DNA from: an uncultured Opitutia bacterium
GTDB taxonomy: Bacteria; Verrucomicrobiota; Verrucomicrobiia; Opitutales; Opitutaceae
Direction of reading: 5' to 3'
DNA: 38,638 nt
Assembly (NCBI GenBank): GCA_903902745.1
Contig: CAIUWA010000029.1
Span: 1 to 38,638, forward strand
Below, one piece after another: positions 1 through 7,155 of the stretch (the stretch's first letter is position 1; every line of letters starts with the position of its first letter). The translations under genes and the position numbers were made by a program. A model generated the notes under the pieces. It worked only from the letters and a program-made list of their open reading frames with translations. It was not told where the DNA came from and did not search any database.

Positions 1-216
1 CGGACCACTTATCTCGGCAAGCTGCGCAATCCGAATCCCCGGATGCCGGATTATGCCGCGCTGCCGGCCAGCCGCACGGAATACAACTTGAAGAATCACC
101 CGGGCGGCCATGGAGCAGAAGGCCACGGGGCAGGGGAGCCGCACGGCCAAGAGGAAAAGAAGGAACCGGGCCATGGTGCGCTCGACGTCGCAAAACGCAT
201 GGGAGGACTTAGCTAA
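1..216 (+). CDS. actB: ActB C-terminus (partial), alternative complex III iron-sulfur subunit
   Basis: The window opens inside a frame-1 reading frame that ends in TAA at 214-216; 71 residues are visible. It begins with [18 protein letters not shown], the conserved extreme C-terminal stretch of the molybdopterin-oxidoreductase-like/ferredoxin ActB subunit. A His/Gly/Glu-rich tail follows ([14 protein letters not shown]). ActB is the large periplasm-facing subunit of alternative complex III and normally carries [Fe-S] clusters that take electrons from menaquinol oxidation; none of those cluster-binding regions lie in this window. The stop codon overlaps the actC start by one base (TAATG), so the two are translationally coupled. 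Identity rests on the short C-terminal motif plus the actC-actF genes that follow. Confidence 0.8.
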
Positions 217-1646
217 TGGCCCACGCTGAACCATCTGCTGCCGCCAGTGCGGCGATTCTTACCGAAGTGAAGCCCGCGGTCTTGCCGCGCGCCGTGCTGG
301 TGGAGCATGGCCGCAGCTTCTCGTGGATCACGGACAAGATCTGCGGCATCATCGAGGAGAAGACCCCCACGTGGTGGTGGTACTGCTTCGGGGTCGCGTG
401 CTTTGTCGCCTGTTTCACCGTCGGCGGGATCACCTACCTCATCTCGACCGGCGTCGGTGTTTGGGGTCACATGAACCCGGTCAACTGGGCGTGGGACATC
501 GTCAACTTCGTCTTCTGGATCGGCATCGGCCACGCCGGCACGCTCATCTCGGCGATCCTGTGCCTGCTGCGCCAGAAATGGCGGACCTCGATCAATCGCG
601 CGGCCGAGGCCATGACGATCTTCGCCGTCGTCTGCGCGGCGATCTTCCCGGTCTTCCACGTCGGCCGCGTCTGGTATGCGTGGTATCTCTTCCCGATTCC
701 GAATTCCAACTACATCTGGCAGAATTTCCGTTCGCCGCTGGAGTGGGACGTGTTTGCGGTCTCGACCTACGGCACGGTGTCGGTGCTCTTCTGGTACGTC
801 GGCCTACTGCCCGACCTCGCCACGCTGCGCGACCGCTTTGAGGCGGCCGGCAACAAGCTCCGTTCGTTCCTCTACGGCCTGTTCGCCATGGGTTGGCGCG
901 GTTCGAACCGCCACTGGAGCAACTACGAGATGGCCTACCTCGTCCTGGCCGGCATCTCGACGCCGCTGGTGCTTTCGGTGCACACGATCGTGTCGTTCGA
1001 CTTCGCCGTGTCGCTGCTGCCGGGCTGGCATACGACCATCTTCCCGCCGTACTTCGTCGCGGGCGCCATCTTCTCGGGCTTCGGCATGGTGCTGACGCTC
1101 ATGCTGCCGCTACGCGCGATCTACAAGCTCGAGGATCTCATCACGCAGTACCACATCGACTGCATGTGCAAGATCACCCTGGCGACGGGCACGATCGTGG
1201 GCTACGCGTACGCGATGGAGTTCTTCATCGCGTGGTACAGCGCGAACCCGTACGAGGGCTTCACCTTCATCAACCGCGCCTTTGGTCCCTACGCGTGGGC
1301 TTACTGGATCATGATCTCGTGCAACGTGATCACGCCGCAGCTCTTCTGGTTCAAGAAGGTCCGCGCCAACACCACGCTGGTCTGGGTGCTCTCGATCTTC
1401 GTGAACGTCGGCATGTGGTTTGAGCGCTTCGTAATCATCGTCACCTCGCTGGCCCGCGACTTCCTGCCGTCGAGCTGGGGCTACTACAGCCCGTCGATCG
1501 TCGAGATCTTCACCTTTTTCGGCACTTTCGGTGTGTTCTCGGTGCTGTTCCTCCTCTTCATCCGCTTCCTGCCCATCATGCCGATGGCGGAGCTCAAGGC
1601 GGTCACCCCGCAGGCCGACCCGCACGGGGACGGCGGCCACCACTAA
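216..1646 (+). CDS. actC: ActC, NrfD-like membrane subunit of alternative complex III
   Basis: This 476-residue polytopic membrane protein has about ten hydrophobic segments, starting around residue 55. It matches the NrfD/PsrC-like ActC subunit, one of the two large membrane subunits that hold the quinol site of alternative complex III. Visible family-type stretches include [35 protein letters not shown] (amphiphilic helix with His) and [16 protein letters not shown]. Length fits the family (about 450-480 residues). The C-terminus is polar and His-rich (PHGDGGHH). The ATG overlaps the actB stop by one base. actD follows after 12 bases. Family assignment is firm from sequence and gene order; quinol-site residues were not mapped individually. 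Confidence 0.95.
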
Positions 1647-1658
1647 TTCGATTCCTCC

Positions 1659-2192
1659 ATGGCTGCACCCTCATACGGCCTGATCGCCACCTTCGACACC
1701 GTCCCCGGCATTTACCATGCCGCAGAGCAGGTGCGCGATGCCGGTTACAAGCATTGGGACTGCATCACGCCCCTGCCGATTCACGGCCTGGACAAGGCGA
1801 TGGGCGTGAAGCGTTCGATCGTGCCCCGCATCTCGCTGGCCGGCGGCATCACCGGTTTCTGCACCGGGATGTCGATGATCTGGTTCACGGACAAATTTGA
1901 TTATCCCTTGCTGGTGGGTGGCAAACCGTACTTCAGCCCGATGTTTGCGTTCCCGGTGTCTTACGAACTCACCATCCTGTTCACCGCCTTCGCGACCATC
2001 GGCGGCATGTTCTTCCTCAATGGACTGCCGATGCACTACCATCCCGTGCTGAAGTACGGCCAGATCCGACGCGGCATGGACGACCAACTTTTCATCGTCA
2101 TCGAGGCGCGCGATCCGCGTTTCAATCTCGCCAACACCAAGGCCCTGCTTGAGCAGGCCGGCGGCAAGGACATCAAGGAGCTGGAAGCCTGA
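1659..2192 (+). CDS. actD: ActD, DUF3341 membrane subunit of alternative complex III
   Basis: This 177-residue protein matches DUF3341/ActD. The N-terminal soluble part opens with YGLIATFDTVPGIYHAAEQV. Two hydrophobic segments lie near residues 55-75 and 100-125, joined by the characteristic stretch DYPLLVGGKPYFSP, and the C-terminal soluble tail contains DDQLFIVIEARDPRF. In known complexes ActD is a two-helix subunit that helps assemble or stabilise the quinol:electron-acceptor oxidoreductase. The start is preceded by TTCCTCC directly before ATG rather than by a purine-rich Shine-Dalgarno. It sits between actC (12-base gap) and actE (3-base gap), so it is an internal cistron of the operon. 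Confidence 0.95.
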   Translation: MAAPSYGLIATFDTVPGIYHAAEQVRDAGYKHWDCITPLPIHGLDKAMGVKRSIVPRISLAGGITGFCTGMSMIWFTDKFDYPLLVGGKPYFSPMFAFPVSYELTILFTAFATIGGMFFLNGLPMHYHPVLKYGQIRRGMDDQLFIVIEARDPRFNLANTKALLEQAGGKDIKELEA

Positions 2193-2195
2193 GCC

Positions 2196-2837
2196 ATGCG
2201 CTACGTCTATCTCGTCACCGCCTTTGTCGTCGTGGTCGTGGTTTCCATCCTGGGATTCCGTGACGCCAAGTTCACCTCGCCCCCGATGGATGTGTTCCCC
2301 GAGTGGGCCTTCCCCGGCATGAAGCGCCAGCCGAAATACAAGGCGCAGGCCGCGAGCCCGTTCTTTGCGGATGGCCGCGCGGACCGTCCGTTGCCCGAGC
2401 ACGTCGTGTCGCGGGACGATCTGCGCGCGGATGACCACCTTTACCGCGGCAAGGACGCCGCCGGGGCGTGGGCCAGGGGCTTTCCCGCGGGTCTGACCGT
2501 CGACATGAAGTTCATGGAGCACGGCCGGGAGCGTTACACCATTTATTGTTCGCCCTGCCACAGCGCGGTAGGTGACGGCAACGGCGTGACGAAGCGTTAC
2601 GGCCTTCTGCCGGCCACCTTCCTCGATGACCGCCTGCGCCAGATGGCCGAGGGTGAAATTTACAACACGATCACCAACGGCACTCAGAACAAGAACATGC
2701 TGCCGTATGCGGACAAACTTACACCGGAGGACCGCTGGGCCGTGATTGCCTATGTGCGCGCCCTTCAGCGAGCGCAGGCCGGCAAGGCCTCCGACGTCAC
2801 CGACGCCGCGGCCAAACAAACCCTTGGTCTCAAATGA
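2196..2837 (+). CDS. actE: ActE, membrane-anchored monoheme cytochrome c of alternative complex III
   Basis: This 213-residue protein has an N-terminal hydrophobic anchor (about residues 3-20) and the ActE-type segment PPMDVFPEWAFPGMKRQPKY. A single heme c site CSPCH lies near residue 119, with a downstream Met in NMLPYADKL as likely axial ligand. This is the standard ActE layout. The subunit carries electrons from the Fe-S/heme subunits toward the terminal acceptor on the periplasmic side. Its stop overlaps the actF start by four bases (ATGA), so the two are translationally coupled. No missing residues were noticed. Confidence 0.95.
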   Translation: MRYVYLVTAFVVVVVVSILGFRDAKFTSPPMDVFPEWAFPGMKRQPKYKAQAASPFFADGRADRPLPEHVVSRDDLRADDHLYRGKDAAGAWARGFPAGLTVDMKFMEHGRERYTIYCSPCHSAVGDGNGVTKRYGLLPATFLDDRLRQMAEGEIYNTITNGTQNKNMLPYADKLTPEDRWAVIAYVRALQRAQAGKASDVTDAAAKQTLGLK

Positions 2838-4114
2838 GCACCCCCGCTGCATCCGCCTCGACGCCCCTTCCGGTCGCATCAGCGCCGGCCTCCCCGGCCA
2901 ATAAGGCGCTGGTGATCGGTATCGCCGGCTTGGCGTTGACCGCCCTTGGCCTGGTGGTCTCGCCCGACAAACACGGCGTGGCGCTCTCCTATCTCGTCGG
3001 GATCACCTACTGGACCGCCATCACGATTGGGATGCTGCTGCTGGTGCTCATCCATCACATCGTCGATGCCTCGTGGTCCGTGGTCATCCGCCGCCAGTGG
3101 GAACACTGGCTGTCGGCCTTCAAGTGGCTGTTTGTGCTTTTCCTCCCGCTGCTGGCCTATGCCTGGATCAACCCCGGCTTTGTCTGGCCATGGATGGATC
3201 TGGGCCATGAGTTGCACGGGCACGGCACAGTGGGCGCCGATGTGCTTTACCAGAAGAAGGCCGGCTTCCTGAATAAGAACATGTTCACGGGTATGACCCT
3301 CGCGTTCTTCGCCAGCTGGGTCTGGCTCTCCGCTCGGCTGCGCAAGGCCTCGTTCACCCAGGATGCCGACGGCGATGTGAAGTGGACCCTCATGAACCGC
3401 AAGTCCGCCGCCATGGGTCTGCCAATTGCCGCGCTCACCCTGACCTTTGCGGCCATCTTCTGGGTGAAGAGCCTCGAGTACCACTGGTTTTCGACGATGT
3501 ATGGCGTGTGGTTTTTTGCCAACTGCGTCCGTGGCGCGCTTTCCATCAGCGTGCTCATCATGCTCTGGCTCTGGGCCCGCGGTGACTTCAAGGGCGGGGT
3601 GCTCACGACCTATCACCTTTACAGCATCGGCCAGCTCGTCTTCGCCTTCACCGTGTTCTGGGCCTACGTGACCTTCTCCCAATACTTCCTGATCTGGAAC
3701 GCCAACGTGCCGGAGGAAACCTTCTGGTACAATCTCCGCGAGGTGAACCACGATGGTTCGCCCAACCAGTGGAAATACGTCGGCATGCTGATTCTCTTCG
3801 GTCACTTCTTTGTGCCCTTCCTGTACCTGCTTTCCTACAAGCACAAGGTTGTGCATTCGAAGATCCGGCCCATCGTCTGCTGGATTCTTGCCATCATCCT
3901 CGTCGACATGTGCTACAACATCCTGCCGGCGCTGAAGGATGAGCACGGTGACTCGCTGCCGTTTCTCTCGATCAACCTCCTGTGGGTGATTGCTTCCGTC
4001 ATCGGGGTGGGCGGTATCTGTGTGTGGGCCTATCTCGGTAGTTTCCCGACCTCCAAGCTGATCCCGATTCGCGACCCGCGCATTGCCGAGTCCCTGGACT
4101 CCCATGGCCTATGA
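2834..4114 (+). CDS. actF: ActF, NrfD-like membrane subunit of alternative complex III
   Basis: This 426-residue polytopic membrane protein is the second NrfD-like subunit of alternative complex III. About ten hydrophobic segments are visible, beginning near residue 25 after an Ala/Pro/Ser-rich N-terminus. The stretch from YWTAITIGMLLLVLIHHIVD through the SWSVVIRRQWEHW region is typical of ActF. ActF pairs with ActC in the membrane and has been proposed to contribute to quinol binding or proton transfer. It overlaps actE by four bases upstream and the next small gene by four bases downstream. Length and order (actB-C-D-E-F) match canonical clusters. Confidence 0.95.
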   Translation: MSTPAASASTPLPVASAPASPANKALVIGIAGLALTALGLVVSPDKHGVALSYLVGITYWTAITIGMLLLVLIHHIVDASWSVVIRRQWEHWLSAFKWLFVLFLPLLAYAWINPGFVWPWMDLGHELHGHGTVGADVLYQKKAGFLNKNMFTGMTLAFFASWVWLSARLRKASFTQDADGDVKWTLMNRKSAAMGLPIAALTLTFAAIFWVKSLEYHWFSTMYGVWFFANCVRGALSISVLIMLWLWARGDFKGGVLTTYHLYSIGQLVFAFTVFWAYVTFSQYFLIWNANVPEETFWYNLREVNHDGSPNQWKYVGMLILFGHFFVPFLYLLSYKHKVVHSKIRPIVCWILAIILVDMCYNILPALKDEHGDSLPFLSINLLWVIASVIGVGGICVWAYLGSFPTSKLIPIRDPRIAESLDSHGL

Positions 4115-4482
4115 GTGAATCCTCCTCCAAGTCCGTTTCCTGTTTTTCCGTGGCCGTGGTGTTTCTCGGCTTTGCGCTCTTCCTGCTGGTCGTGAAGTAC
4201 GCCTACCTGCCGCACCGTGCGCCGGCGCCGCACACTGTCGCGCCGGAGCAATTGCCGGCCGACCAGGCGTGGAAGGCCACGGCCCAGGACCGCAAGAATT
4301 ACTTGGCGGAGCTCCACAAAAAGGAGGAGGCGCAGGTTGCTGCCTACGCCTGGGTCGATCAGGCGAAGGGGGTCGTGCAACTCCCCATCAACCGGGCGAT
4401 GGAGCTTACGCTTCAGGATATCCAGGCCGCGCAGTCGGTCCGGCAAATCCGCGACCTGCCAACTTCCAACACGCGATTTTGA
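4111..4482 (+). CDS. Small single-pass membrane protein in the complex III operon
   Basis: This 123-residue protein has one predicted transmembrane segment (about residues 13-30). A Pro/Ala-rich periplasmic linker follows, then a charged helix (QDRKNYLAELHKKEEAQ) and the short motif YAWVDQAKGVVQLPINRAME. From memory, similar small proteins with a 'YGWVD...G...IPI.RAM' motif occur beside complex III and cytochrome oxidase genes, but I know of no assigned biochemical function. It overlaps actF by four bases and the next gene by one base (TGATG), so it is an integral operon member. It has no Cys and no heme motif. An assembly or docking factor is a reasonable guess, nothing more. Confidence 0.8.
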   Translation: MSESSSKSVSCFSVAVVFLGFALFLLVVKYAYLPHRAPAPHTVAPEQLPADQAWKATAQDRKNYLAELHKKEEAQVAAYAWVDQAKGVVQLPINRAMELTLQDIQAAQSVRQIRDLPTSNTRF

Positions 4483-5888
4483 TGACTCAGGTCACTTCCA
4501 ACGCCCTTAGTGAATCTGATACCAGCTCGCGCTGGCCGCTCTCGCTGTTGCTCTGTGCGGCGCTCAAGTGGCTGGTTCTCGCGGGCGTGCTGTCGGTCAT
4601 CAGTACCATCCAGCTGCACACGCCGTCCTTTTTGGCGGACTGTTCCTGGCTCACCCATGGGCGCACGCAGGCGCTGCAGGAAACGATCTTCATTTATGGC
4701 TGGGCCGCCAACGTCGGCTTTGCCGTGGCGCTCTGGCTCCTGGGCCGGTTGGGTGGCGCGCCCTTGCGCGGGCTGGGCCTGCTGACGGCCGGCACGGTTT
4801 TCTGGAACCTCGGGGTGGCCTTTGGTCTGGTTTGCATCGCGATGGGCGAGGCCACGGGGGTGCCGTTCCTGCAGATGCCAGCTTACGTGCATCCGTTACT
4901 GCTGGTGGCCTATGCGGCCATCGCCACTCCCGGCATTCTCGCTTGGACCGGCCGGCGGCAGCGGGCGACTTTTGCGACGCAGTGGTACGCCGTGGCGGCG
5001 CTCTTTCTCTTCCCTTGGCTCTATTCCGCTGCGCAGGTGATGCTGCTGGGTGCCCCGGTTCGCGGGATTGGACAGGCCGTGGTGGCCGTGTGGTTTGGCC
5101 AGAATTTGCTCAGCCTCTGGCTCATTCCGATCGCCTTGGCCGCCGCGTACTACCTCGTGCCAAAACTGACCGGCCGGACCATCGCCAATTACGACTTCGC
5201 CCCGCATGGCTTTTGGGCCCTCCTTTTCTTCGGTGCCTGGACTGGAACCCGGCAGCTGGTCGGCGGTCCCGTGCCGGCCTGGATTCCCACGATGGGGATC
5301 GTGGCCACGCTGATCGTGCTGTTCCACTACGTCATTGTGGCGCTGAATCTCCGCGGCGTGCTGTGCGGTGACAAGCGGGACATTGCCCTGCGCTTTGTTT
5401 CCTTCGGTCTCGTGGCCTATTTGATTGGCGGCATCTTCGATGCGATATTTGCCTTCCAGACATTTGCCGAAGTGGTGCAATTTACTTATTTCCCCATGGC
5501 TCAGCTCAAGCTGGCCCTGGTAGGCGCCTATTCCTTCCTCATCCTCGGCGCGGTCTATTATCTCGCGCCGCGCATCACCGGTCTGGCCTGGCCTTCCAGC
5601 GGTCTCATTCGGATGCATTTCCGTCTGATGGTTCTCGGGACCTTGGTCACGGTTGTCAGTCTTGGCATGGCGGGCTGGACCCAGGGTCATGCTTTGCTCG
5701 ATGCAAAACTTTCCTTTGCGGCCATCGCCGCCAGCACACGTCCCTGGCTGCTTGCCGCCACCGCCGGTGAGGCAATCCTGTTGCTCGGGAGCCTGGTGTT
5801 GACCGTACATTTCTTCCTTCTGCAAGCGGCGGCGGGCTGCTCCACCTTTGGCAGCACGGCACCCGCCATGGAGGCATCCGCGTCATGA
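4482..5888 (+). CDS. CcoN-like heme-copper oxidase subunit I lacking all metal ligands
   Basis: This protein has 468 residues when started at ATG 4482, which overlaps the preceding stop as TGATG; an in-frame upstream extension exists only inside the previous gene. About twelve hydrophobic helices align with cbb3 oxidase subunit I (CcoN) without large gaps. Examples are LTHGR at 57-61 versus LTFGR, VWFGQN at 203-208 versus WYGHN, HGFWALLFF at 242-250 versus HFWALIF, and AVYYLAP at 357-363. Every catalytic position is changed: the low-spin heme b ligand is Q66; CuB ligands are Q207, R257 and Q258; the cross-linked Tyr position is G251; the heme b3 and heme b ligands on the H-x-H helix are Q341 and K343. 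Oxygen reduction by this subunit is therefore very unlikely. It is co-transcribed with complex III and two cytochromes. The alignment is by eye. Confidence 0.85.
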   Translation: MTQVTSNALSESDTSSRWPLSLLLCAALKWLVLAGVLSVISTIQLHTPSFLADCSWLTHGRTQALQETIFIYGWAANVGFAVALWLLGRLGGAPLRGLGLLTAGTVFWNLGVAFGLVCIAMGEATGVPFLQMPAYVHPLLLVAYAAIATPGILAWTGRRQRATFATQWYAVAALFLFPWLYSAAQVMLLGAPVRGIGQAVVAVWFGQNLLSLWLIPIALAAAYYLVPKLTGRTIANYDFAPHGFWALLFFGAWTGTRQLVGGPVPAWIPTMGIVATLIVLFHYVIVALNLRGVLCGDKRDIALRFVSFGLVAYLIGGIFDAIFAFQTFAEVVQFTYFPMAQLKLALVGAYSFLILGAVYYLAPRITGLAWPSSGLIRMHFRLMVLGTLVTVVSLGMAGWTQGHALLDAKLSFAAIAASTRPWLLAATAGEAILLLGSLVLTVHFFLLQAAAGCSTFGSTAPAMEASAS

Positions 5889-6508
5889 AAAACGGCCTGC
5901 TCCTTTTTGTCGGTATTTTCGCCTCCCTGGCACTTTCCTGGGGCGGTCTGGCACTGGGCAGCAATGCCCAGCTTGGCGGTTTGGCACCGTACTATGACCA
6001 GCTTGAGAACCGTGCCTTTCCCGAGCGCGCGCCGGGCATCGCTTCCCGCGGCAAGCTGGTTTACCAGGATCTCGGCTGCGCCGCCTGCCACACCCAAGAG
6101 GTGCGCCGGCCCGGTTATGGCAGCGATACCGAGCGGAAGTGGGGAGACCGTCAAAGCTACGCCCGCGATTACATCCATCAGGAGCGGGTCCTACTTGGCC
6201 TCAGCCGGGTGGGGCCGGACCTGACCAATGTGGGTGCCCGTCTCAAGAGTGCTGATGACGTCTACAAGCTTCTCTATCATGGCACCGCCACGATGCCCTC
6301 CTTCACCTTCCTATTCGAGGAACGTCCGGCCCATGCCCAACCATCGCCCAAGGCCGTCGCCATGAATGGCGACCGGGAGATTGTACCCACGCCCCGGGCT
6401 GAGGTGCTGGCGGCCTATTTGCTGAGTCTCAGTGCACCGGCGGATTATCCGGCGGAAAAGGCGGTCAACGCGATCGCCCCGGCCAAGAAGGAGGGGGAAC
6501 ACAAATGA
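5885..6508 (+). CDS. CcoO-like membrane-anchored monoheme cytochrome c
   Basis: This 207-residue protein has an N-terminal hydrophobic anchor (about residues 4-24) and one heme c site CAACH at 65-69. After the heme site the sequence follows the CcoO pattern: CHTQEVRRPGYG (compare CHSQMIRP), then SRVGPDLTNVGAR at 107-119 (compare the K/RxGPDLxxVGxR of CcoO). M137 in TMPSF is the likely axial ligand. In cbb3 oxidases CcoO sits on CcoN and passes electrons to heme b. Here its CcoN partner has no heme ligands, so the natural electron path is blocked and another acceptor is implied. It overlaps the CcoN-like stop by four bases and the next gene by four bases. Confidence 0.85.
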   Translation: MKNGLLLFVGIFASLALSWGGLALGSNAQLGGLAPYYDQLENRAFPERAPGIASRGKLVYQDLGCAACHTQEVRRPGYGSDTERKWGDRQSYARDYIHQERVLLGLSRVGPDLTNVGARLKSADDVYKLLYHGTATMPSFTFLFEERPAHAQPSPKAVAMNGDREIVPTPRAEVLAAYLLSLSAPADYPAEKAVNAIAPAKKEGEHK

Positions 6509-7155
6509 GCGACCACCCCTCTCCGAAACCCGGTTCCTCTTCCTCGCTCTCCGACGGGGAGCTGCTGCATGCGCATGAGCAGGCGGTGGCGGACAAGACC
6601 GATGATCGCGGCAGTTACAAGCTGCTGCCGCTGGTGCTACTCTTCACCTTCAGCGGACTGATCTTCTTTGGCGGCACCTACCTCAATCTGTTCTCCGGAC
6701 ATTTTGATCCGAGGATCTTTGATGAGCGCGCCCTGCCGCACACCGTGGACACTTCGGTGAAGATGGATCCGGTTGTCTACGGCAAGAAGCTGTATGAGTC
6801 CCTCTGCATCAACTGCCATCAGCCCACTGGCCTTGGCGTGCCGGGTACTTTCCCTCCGCTGGCGGGTTCGGAGTGGATTAATGGTTCCGAGGAAAGAATC
6901 GTTCGTATTTTGGAAAACGGCCTCAAGGGCCCCATCACCGTCAAGGGCATGAATTTTGGCACCGTGCCCATGCCGGCGGTCGGGGCGGGCGGCGCCAACT
7001 GGAGCGATGACAAGATTGCCGCCGTGCTGACCTATGTCCGCCAGGCCTTTGGCAACACATCCGGCCCGGTGACGGAGGAAAAGGTCGTCGAAATTCACGC
7101 AAAGATCGGCGCTCATGCCGAATGGTCGCCCGAGGAACTGTTGAAACTGCCGTAA
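6505..7155 (+). CDS. CcoP-like membrane-anchored monoheme cytochrome c
   Basis: This 216-residue protein has a polar Ser/Pro-rich cytoplasmic N-terminus and one transmembrane helix (about residues 40-62). A periplasmic cytochrome c domain follows, with CINCH at 101-105 and a likely axial Met156 in VPMPAVG. The layout resembles CcoP of cbb3 oxidases but has one heme c instead of the usual two. It is the last gene of the operon and is followed 25 bases later by a strong terminator. A general class I cytochrome c anchored to the membrane is the safe description; the CcoP relation is inferred from topology and gene order. Confidence 0.8.
   Translation: MSDHPSPKPGSSSSLSDGELLHAHEQAVADKTDDRGSYKLLPLVLLFTFSGLIFFGGTYLNLFSGHFDPRIFDERALPHTVDTSVKMDPVVYGKKLYESLCINCHQPTGLGVPGTFPPLAGSEWINGSEERIVRILENGLKGPITVKGMNFGTVPMPAVGAGGANWSDDKIAAVLTYVRQAFGNTSGPVTEEKVVEIHAKIGAHAEWSPEELLKLP

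Follow-up and report, generated by a model that had tools for sequence, protein, structure and literature searches.

A CcoN-like protein lacking the metal-ligand residues of cbb3 oxidase is encoded in ACIII operons of Verrucomicrobiota

Few residues of respiratory proteins are as conserved as the metal ligands of heme-copper oxidases, and CcoP of the cbb3-type oxidase is a diheme protein with two CXXCH motifs. A physical association between ACIII and an oxidase is described for Rhodothermus marinus and Flavobacterium johnsoniae in the passages cited here (PMC5928083). That genes for ACIII and for a C-type oxidase lie side by side in methanotrophs and in Opitutaceae is already in print (PMC8498564, citing Refojo 2010). 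A literature search of titles and abstracts found no paper on a CcoN devoid of its ligands. Here we describe such a CcoN-like protein, encoded in an ACIII operon of an uncultured Opitutia bacterium, and its relatives in the same phylum.

The ACIII operon and the replaced metal ligands

The DNA analysed is a stretch of 38,638 nucleotides, hereafter the window. Its contig starts just before the ActC gene; ActC (NrfD), ActD and ActE of an ACIII operon are present (Table 1), and the ActA (five hemes) and ActB (Fe-S) genes would lie off the contig. In two relatives the region upstream of ActC encodes an ActB-like Fe-S protein (L032) or an ActB-like protein and a five-CXXCH protein (L045). From ActE onward adjacent genes overlap by 1–4 bases and thus look translationally coupled; these overlaps and an intact open reading frame for 468 aa agree with the sequence-only reading made earlier, which had placed an intact CcoN-like frame inside a coupled operon. 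Homologues of the small protein encoded after ActF are found in many relatives but not in all. When compared with TIGR00782 (ccoP), the second cytochrome scored 29.9 bits, below the cut-off of 179.95.

Table 1. Genes of the ACIII operon in the window and the basis of their assignment
Feature	Position	Strand	Basis
ActC-like (NrfD family) ACIII membrane subunit	216..1646	+	PF03916 NrfD 7.7e-25
ActD	1659..2192	+	PF11821 ActD 1.1e-61
ActE-like monoheme cytochrome c	2196..2837	+	PF13442 4.2e-11; one CXXCH
ActF-like membrane subunit	2834..4114	+	Inferred from position and from conservation after ActE in relatives; no Pfam family
Small protein, 123 aa, ActG-like by position only	4111..4482	+	No family above cut-off
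Ligandless CcoN-like protein	4482..5888	+	PF00115, phmmer, alignments
CcoO/FixO-like monoheme cytochrome c	5885..6508	+	PF02433 FixO 35.6 bits, cut-off 29.6; one CXXCH
Second monoheme cytochrome c, in CcoP's place	6505..7155	+	PF00034 2.1e-10; one CXXCH

The CcoN-like protein of 468 residues matches PF00115 at 7.6e-36 (124 bits, cut-off 34.8), and five distinct solved cbb3 subunit I sequences align with its residues 26–455 by phmmer (best E 2.8e-21), in agreement with the homology to cbb3 oxidase subunit I that had been proposed by eye. It scored 83 bits with TIGR00780 (ccoN), for which the cut-off is 583, and its ligand-bearing ACIII-linked relatives are likewise under this cut-off (216–258 bits). 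The hydropathy count gave 11 segments. The structure model was poor (pLDDT 39.2, pTM 0.31; usable sequences from the window, L032 and L033), and no claim is built on it. Counted along the alignment, the columns of 3mk7 pair Q66 with H60, Q207 with H207, G251 with Y251, R257 with H257, Q258 with H258, Q341 with H345 and K343 with H347. None of the six metal-ligand histidines is present in the window protein, and the column of the catalytic tyrosine holds a glycine. Two MAFFT alignments (83 and 86 sequences) gave identical site states, all rows that they share being unchanged. The replacement of all seven residues claimed in the sequence-only reading is thus confirmed in both 3mk7 and the MAFFT alignments; the last two aligned columns given there were also right, but their numbers, H347 and H349, were off by two and should read H345 and H347 in 3mk7. 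In 15 of 15 comparison CcoN sequences of the same phylum (L097, L099–L108, L110–L113) these columns read H-H-Y-H-H-H-H, and the loss of the sites in the window protein is therefore not due to chance.

The division of the ligand histidines outside the CuB site between heme b and heme b3 is our assumption. The CuB ligands of Pseudomonas stutzeri are His207, His257 and His258 (PMC3578206, in the part cited). As judged from the aligned columns, the window protein is without the heme b, heme b3 and CuB sites and without the catalytic tyrosine. With these gone, it would not reduce oxygen by the known mechanism; the alignments argue strongly that the ligandless CcoN-like protein is no oxidase of a known kind, and it is presumably free of heme and copper.

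Occurrence and history of the ligand loss

We searched 288 genomes of the phylum, taken out of a larger group, and obtained matches in 91. Around short-frame matches 72 stretches were taken, together with eight comparison stretches, the search having listed further matches; a scan of named genome contigs with the protein gave two relatives (L032 and L033). Act genes are found upstream in 64 of the 72 stretches, and these with the window, L032 and L033 form the ACIII-linked set of 67 copies. Outside this set are eight ligand-bearing copies without Act matches (L097, L099–L105), seven canonical or other copies (L106–L108, L110–L113), L109, and L114, which is identical to L032 and brings the ligandless count to 47 in the outgroup tree. 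Genes of the ActE and ActF types lie upstream in all 67 copies and ActC in 64; the Act genes of L098 are about 7 kb from the CcoN-like gene. Several variants of the gene order were observed. Eight loci (L074, L080–L085 and L088) have an extra gene, similar to that of the last cytochrome, between ActF and the CcoN-like gene. In L075–L077 ActE and ActF precede the CcoN-like gene, and ActC and ActD are without a match in 20 kb. In L093 (10692–12707) a 672-aa frame matches ActC and a match to ActD is absent, perhaps because of a fusion.

All seven residues are kept in 21 of the 67 ACIII-linked copies, from Verrucomicrobiota, and sites are lost in the other 46; the genomes are related, so these counts are not independent trials. 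The sequence-only reading had asked for a homologue search and would have been overturned by ligand-bearing relatives among which the window's copy alone is degenerate. Such relatives do exist, but the loss is not unique and is common to many lineages. Among the 46 ligandless copies, Tyr251 and H257 are never kept, H345 is kept in one, H347 in three, H207 in eight, H258 in 14 and H60 in 18; no site is kept in ten copies, one in 30, two in four and three in two. The replacement residues vary from clade to clade. Every f7 and f8 genome examined that has an ACIII-linked copy has a ligandless one (9/9 and 5/5, respectively). The two copies with three sites, L069 and L071, have both heme b ligands and have lost the heme b3 and CuB sites, a possible intermediate state. 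In L109 (11016–13179) the CcoN-like frame is shortened to 346 aa, has no Pfam match and is followed by both cytochromes; no Act match lies within 19 kb, and this locus perhaps represents a further stage of reduction.

The nearest outgroup in the sample consists of L115–L119, five examined loci on proteobacterial replicons out of 315 plasmid records with a match, whose join is starred at 99. All five have all seven residues. As a ligand-bearing outgroup roots the family, the loss of the ligands is derived, and the ligand-bearing state is most simply taken as ancestral. Act genes are not annotated beside L115 and L116, and L117–L119 are unannotated stretches. Behind the ligand-bearing trio of L116 (7731–14596), which is carried by a plasmid of Paraburkholderia, lie genes for a P-type ATPase, a molybdopterin oxidoreductase and a cytochrome c. 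The CcoN-like tree, for which the ligand columns were removed, has three changes of state; the concatenated ActC-D-E-F tree (64 rows) has eight, seven of them forced by starred branches, and the tree of ActC alone has eight, five of them forced. All trees were computed in quick mode and carry long-branch warnings. Monophyly of ligandless rows was rejected twice, on the CcoN-like tree for all 46 of them (p-AU 0.00024) and on the concatenated Act tree for the 22 from Opitutales (p-AU 1e-7). Constraining L078 to its own family was not rejected (p 0.284), which fits one more loss. The placement of L042 with its operon sister L047 was rejected (p 0.002), which fits gene exchange or long-branch effects. 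Three losses are a safe minimum and the number is possibly eight; the changes beyond three may stem from further losses, from gene exchange or from long-branch effects.

The other oxidases of these bacteria were surveyed by searching PF00115 in 66 genomes and reading the list of bit scores by hand. Matches of at least 418 bits were taken as an A-type band, in which the two proteins checked (L095, L072) are CtaD-like. A match in this band is present in 44 of 44 ligandless genomes versus 17 of 21 ligand-bearing ones, and in 20 ligandless genomes and one ligand-bearing genome (G257) the A-type-band gene starts 1.57–2.65 kb downstream. The genome of the window has an A-type-band match (C9) and a canonical CcoN (C11), both on other contigs. 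Two genomes (G146, G001), and no others, have a single PF00115 match, in a search that covers heme-copper oxidases only; in both it is the ligand-bearing ACIII-linked copy, which argues that the ligand-bearing form works.

The f8 copies bear on published annotations. PF02461 (pMMO/AMO) was found in six of six f8 genomes searched and in none of 14 control genomes. The ACIII-linked gene is present in five of these six, with the seven sites reading S-E-S-S-H-F-V (four genomes) or A-D-A-A-H-Q-T (one), and TIGR00780 detected no canonical CcoN in any of the five (best score 33.7 bits). In L098 (9391–15591) genes for NosZ (over the cut-off), NosD and NosL lie between ActF and the CcoN-like gene, and the same Nos arrangement is described for Methylacidiphilum caldifontis IT6 in the passage cited (PMC11102522). 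The link of f8 to Methylacidiphilum is drawn from these traits. In the passages cited here, a cbb3-type oxidase is counted in this group (PMC8498564, PMC6688271, PMC10205796), its genes are placed beside ACIII (PMC8498564, PMC6688271) and it is linked to high oxygen affinity (PMC6688271). To judge from the five genomes, the 'cbb3 oxidase' of these papers appears to be, in pMMO-bearing, Methylacidiphilum-like genomes, the ligandless protein. The annotation is affected in all five pMMO-bearing genomes that have the gene, as their ACIII-linked copy is ligandless and a canonical CcoN was not found.

Constraint on the core and on its partner cytochromes

The comparisons suggest that the ligandless protein now holds neighbouring electron-carrying proteins and is not an enzyme, and a scaffold role is our best inference from the sequences. 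No in-frame stop was found in the CcoN-like gene among the matches listed. In ten ligandless sister pairs, three of which were drawn from the same three genomes, dN/dS of this gene ranged from 0.050 to 0.242 (dS of the window pair, 1.37); in ligand-bearing copies it was 0.029 and 0.064 for the two pairs with usable dS, dS being saturated or infinite in the other two of four. A value of 0.71 for the second cytochrome of L082 and L085, which are 36% identical, was set aside as probably comparing two different genes. The view that the gene is not decaying is thus borne out, and selection among its relatives, a point that the sequence-only reading had wished to see examined, is purifying. That the gene is non-functional and being slowly lost under the shelter of its operon is contradicted both by these dN/dS values and by its retention in all the f7 and f8 genomes examined; the shortened frame of L109 and the rate acceleration described below would fit such a decay, which we nevertheless hold to be very improbable.

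Evolutionary rates were compared with those of the Act proteins as a log-identity ratio. In the window's family, ligandless pairs have a ratio of 2.79 and ligand-bearing pairs one of 0.91, and L049 and L078 gave 2.92 and 2.91 versus 1.14 among their ligand-bearing relatives; the values for ligandless f7 (1.56) and f8 (1.90) have no ligand-bearing counterpart in this sample. Ligand-bearing ACIII-linked copies change about as fast as the Act proteins. Relative to these proteins, the CcoN-like protein of the window's family evolves about three times faster after the loss, which points to relaxed constraint. When the seven former ligand columns were compared with random sets of seven columns in five ligandless clades, no excess of conservation was seen (0.15–0.71 of the random sets were as conserved). 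Selection of the Q/R/K replacements themselves is not supported, as these columns behave like random sets and their residues differ between clades. The ligandless protein is therefore constrained, but less tightly than before the loss.

In the partner cytochromes, the CXXCH motif of the CcoO-like protein is present in 46 of 46 ligandless and 21 of 21 ligand-bearing copies, and that of the second cytochrome in 46 of 46 and 19 of 19 (L061 and L066, in which this cytochrome is without a match, are left out of its tally). Met156 of the second cytochrome is kept in 45 of 46 ligandless copies and in 19 of 19 ligand-bearing ones. Met137 of the CcoO-like protein, which from the family we take to be an axial heme ligand, is changed in 16 of the 46 ligandless copies (to Cys in nine, to Lys, His, Arg or Ala in seven) and in none of the 21 ligand-bearing copies, so that the role of at least the CcoO-like heme has shifted. 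These changes, the faster evolution after the loss, and purifying selection on the whole protein combined with unconserved former ligand columns would also be expected of an assembly relic, needed only to insert or stabilize ACIII or the cytochromes, with no significant electron flow. The CXXCH motifs, kept in every ligandless copy, and the almost invariant Met156 point instead to working hemes c, and we regard a relic of this kind as rather unlikely.

A heme or another cofactor might alternatively be bound by other residues and serve a redox, sensing or quinone-related function. L069 and L071 retain both heme b ligands, H379 is present in 87% of ligandless and in all ligand-bearing copies, and H282 and H443 are found in 100% and 82%, respectively, of the window's clade. 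However, proteins that have the normal ligands conserve H379 just as well, so that it is no replacement ligand, and none of the newly conserved residues forms a pair common to all ligandless clades; a new cofactor role is, in our view, improbable.

Proposed role and comparison with known systems

We consider it reasonably probable that a dead oxidase core has been kept as the membrane scaffold of an ACIII-linked heme-c module. The ancestor would have been a working C-type (cbb3-like) oxidase subunit I that shared an operon with ACIII. Its catalytic tyrosine and the sites for heme b, heme b3 and CuB would then have been lost, and the membrane core retained, where it may hold the CcoO-like and monoheme cytochromes c next to ACIII. 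Electrons from quinol would pass through ACIII (ActB/ActA/ActE) to the two hemes c, from which another oxidase, in most cases one of the A type, would receive them. The loss of the sites, its recurrence, the ligand-bearing outgroup, intact frames, purifying selection, the kept CXXCH motifs, synteny, the A-type oxidases and the ligand-bearing form of the two single-oxidase genomes support this scaffold reading; the Met137 changes, the roughly threefold rate, the position of the window's oxidases on other contigs and L109 count against it. Physical assembly with ACIII, the absence of metals and the electron path are what we infer from this evidence. We give about an even chance to the broader proposition that in Verrucomicrobiota an additional heme-c module, with a repeatedly killed oxidase as its membrane core, belongs to ACIII, the wiring and scaffold having been kept and the oxygen chemistry dropped at least three, perhaps eight, times in genomes with another oxidase; the 'cbb3 oxidase' of the Methylacidiphilum type would then be no oxidase.

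A core that is kept while its ligands are lost several times sets the structural role of subunit I apart from its catalytic one. Both forms are found at the same place of the operon in a single bacterial family, so that natural variants can be used to test what the core contributes to the coupling of ACIII and oxidase.

With CcoN of the cbb3 oxidase the window protein shares PF00115, homology over the region aligned by phmmer and a FixO-like cytochrome encoded next to it; it differs in having none of the six ligand histidines and no catalytic tyrosine, and in scoring far under the ccoN cut-off. The second cytochrome differs from CcoP in its single CXXCH motif. The stand-alone trios of L115 and L116 share the order CcoN, CcoO, cytochrome c with the window, from which L115–L119 differ by their seven residues, present in all five, and L115 and L116 by having no annotated Act genes alongside. 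In the supercomplexes of R. marinus and F. johnsoniae the partner of ACIII is a working caa3 or aa3 oxidase, whereas the putative partner in the window, placed beside ACIII by synteny and coupled frames, is a ligandless C-type core; common to both is the order of ACIII genes followed by oxidase genes. The ligand-bearing ACIII-linked copies of Verrucomicrobiota share the operon slot and the neighbouring genes with the ligandless ones, and differ from them in keeping all seven residues.
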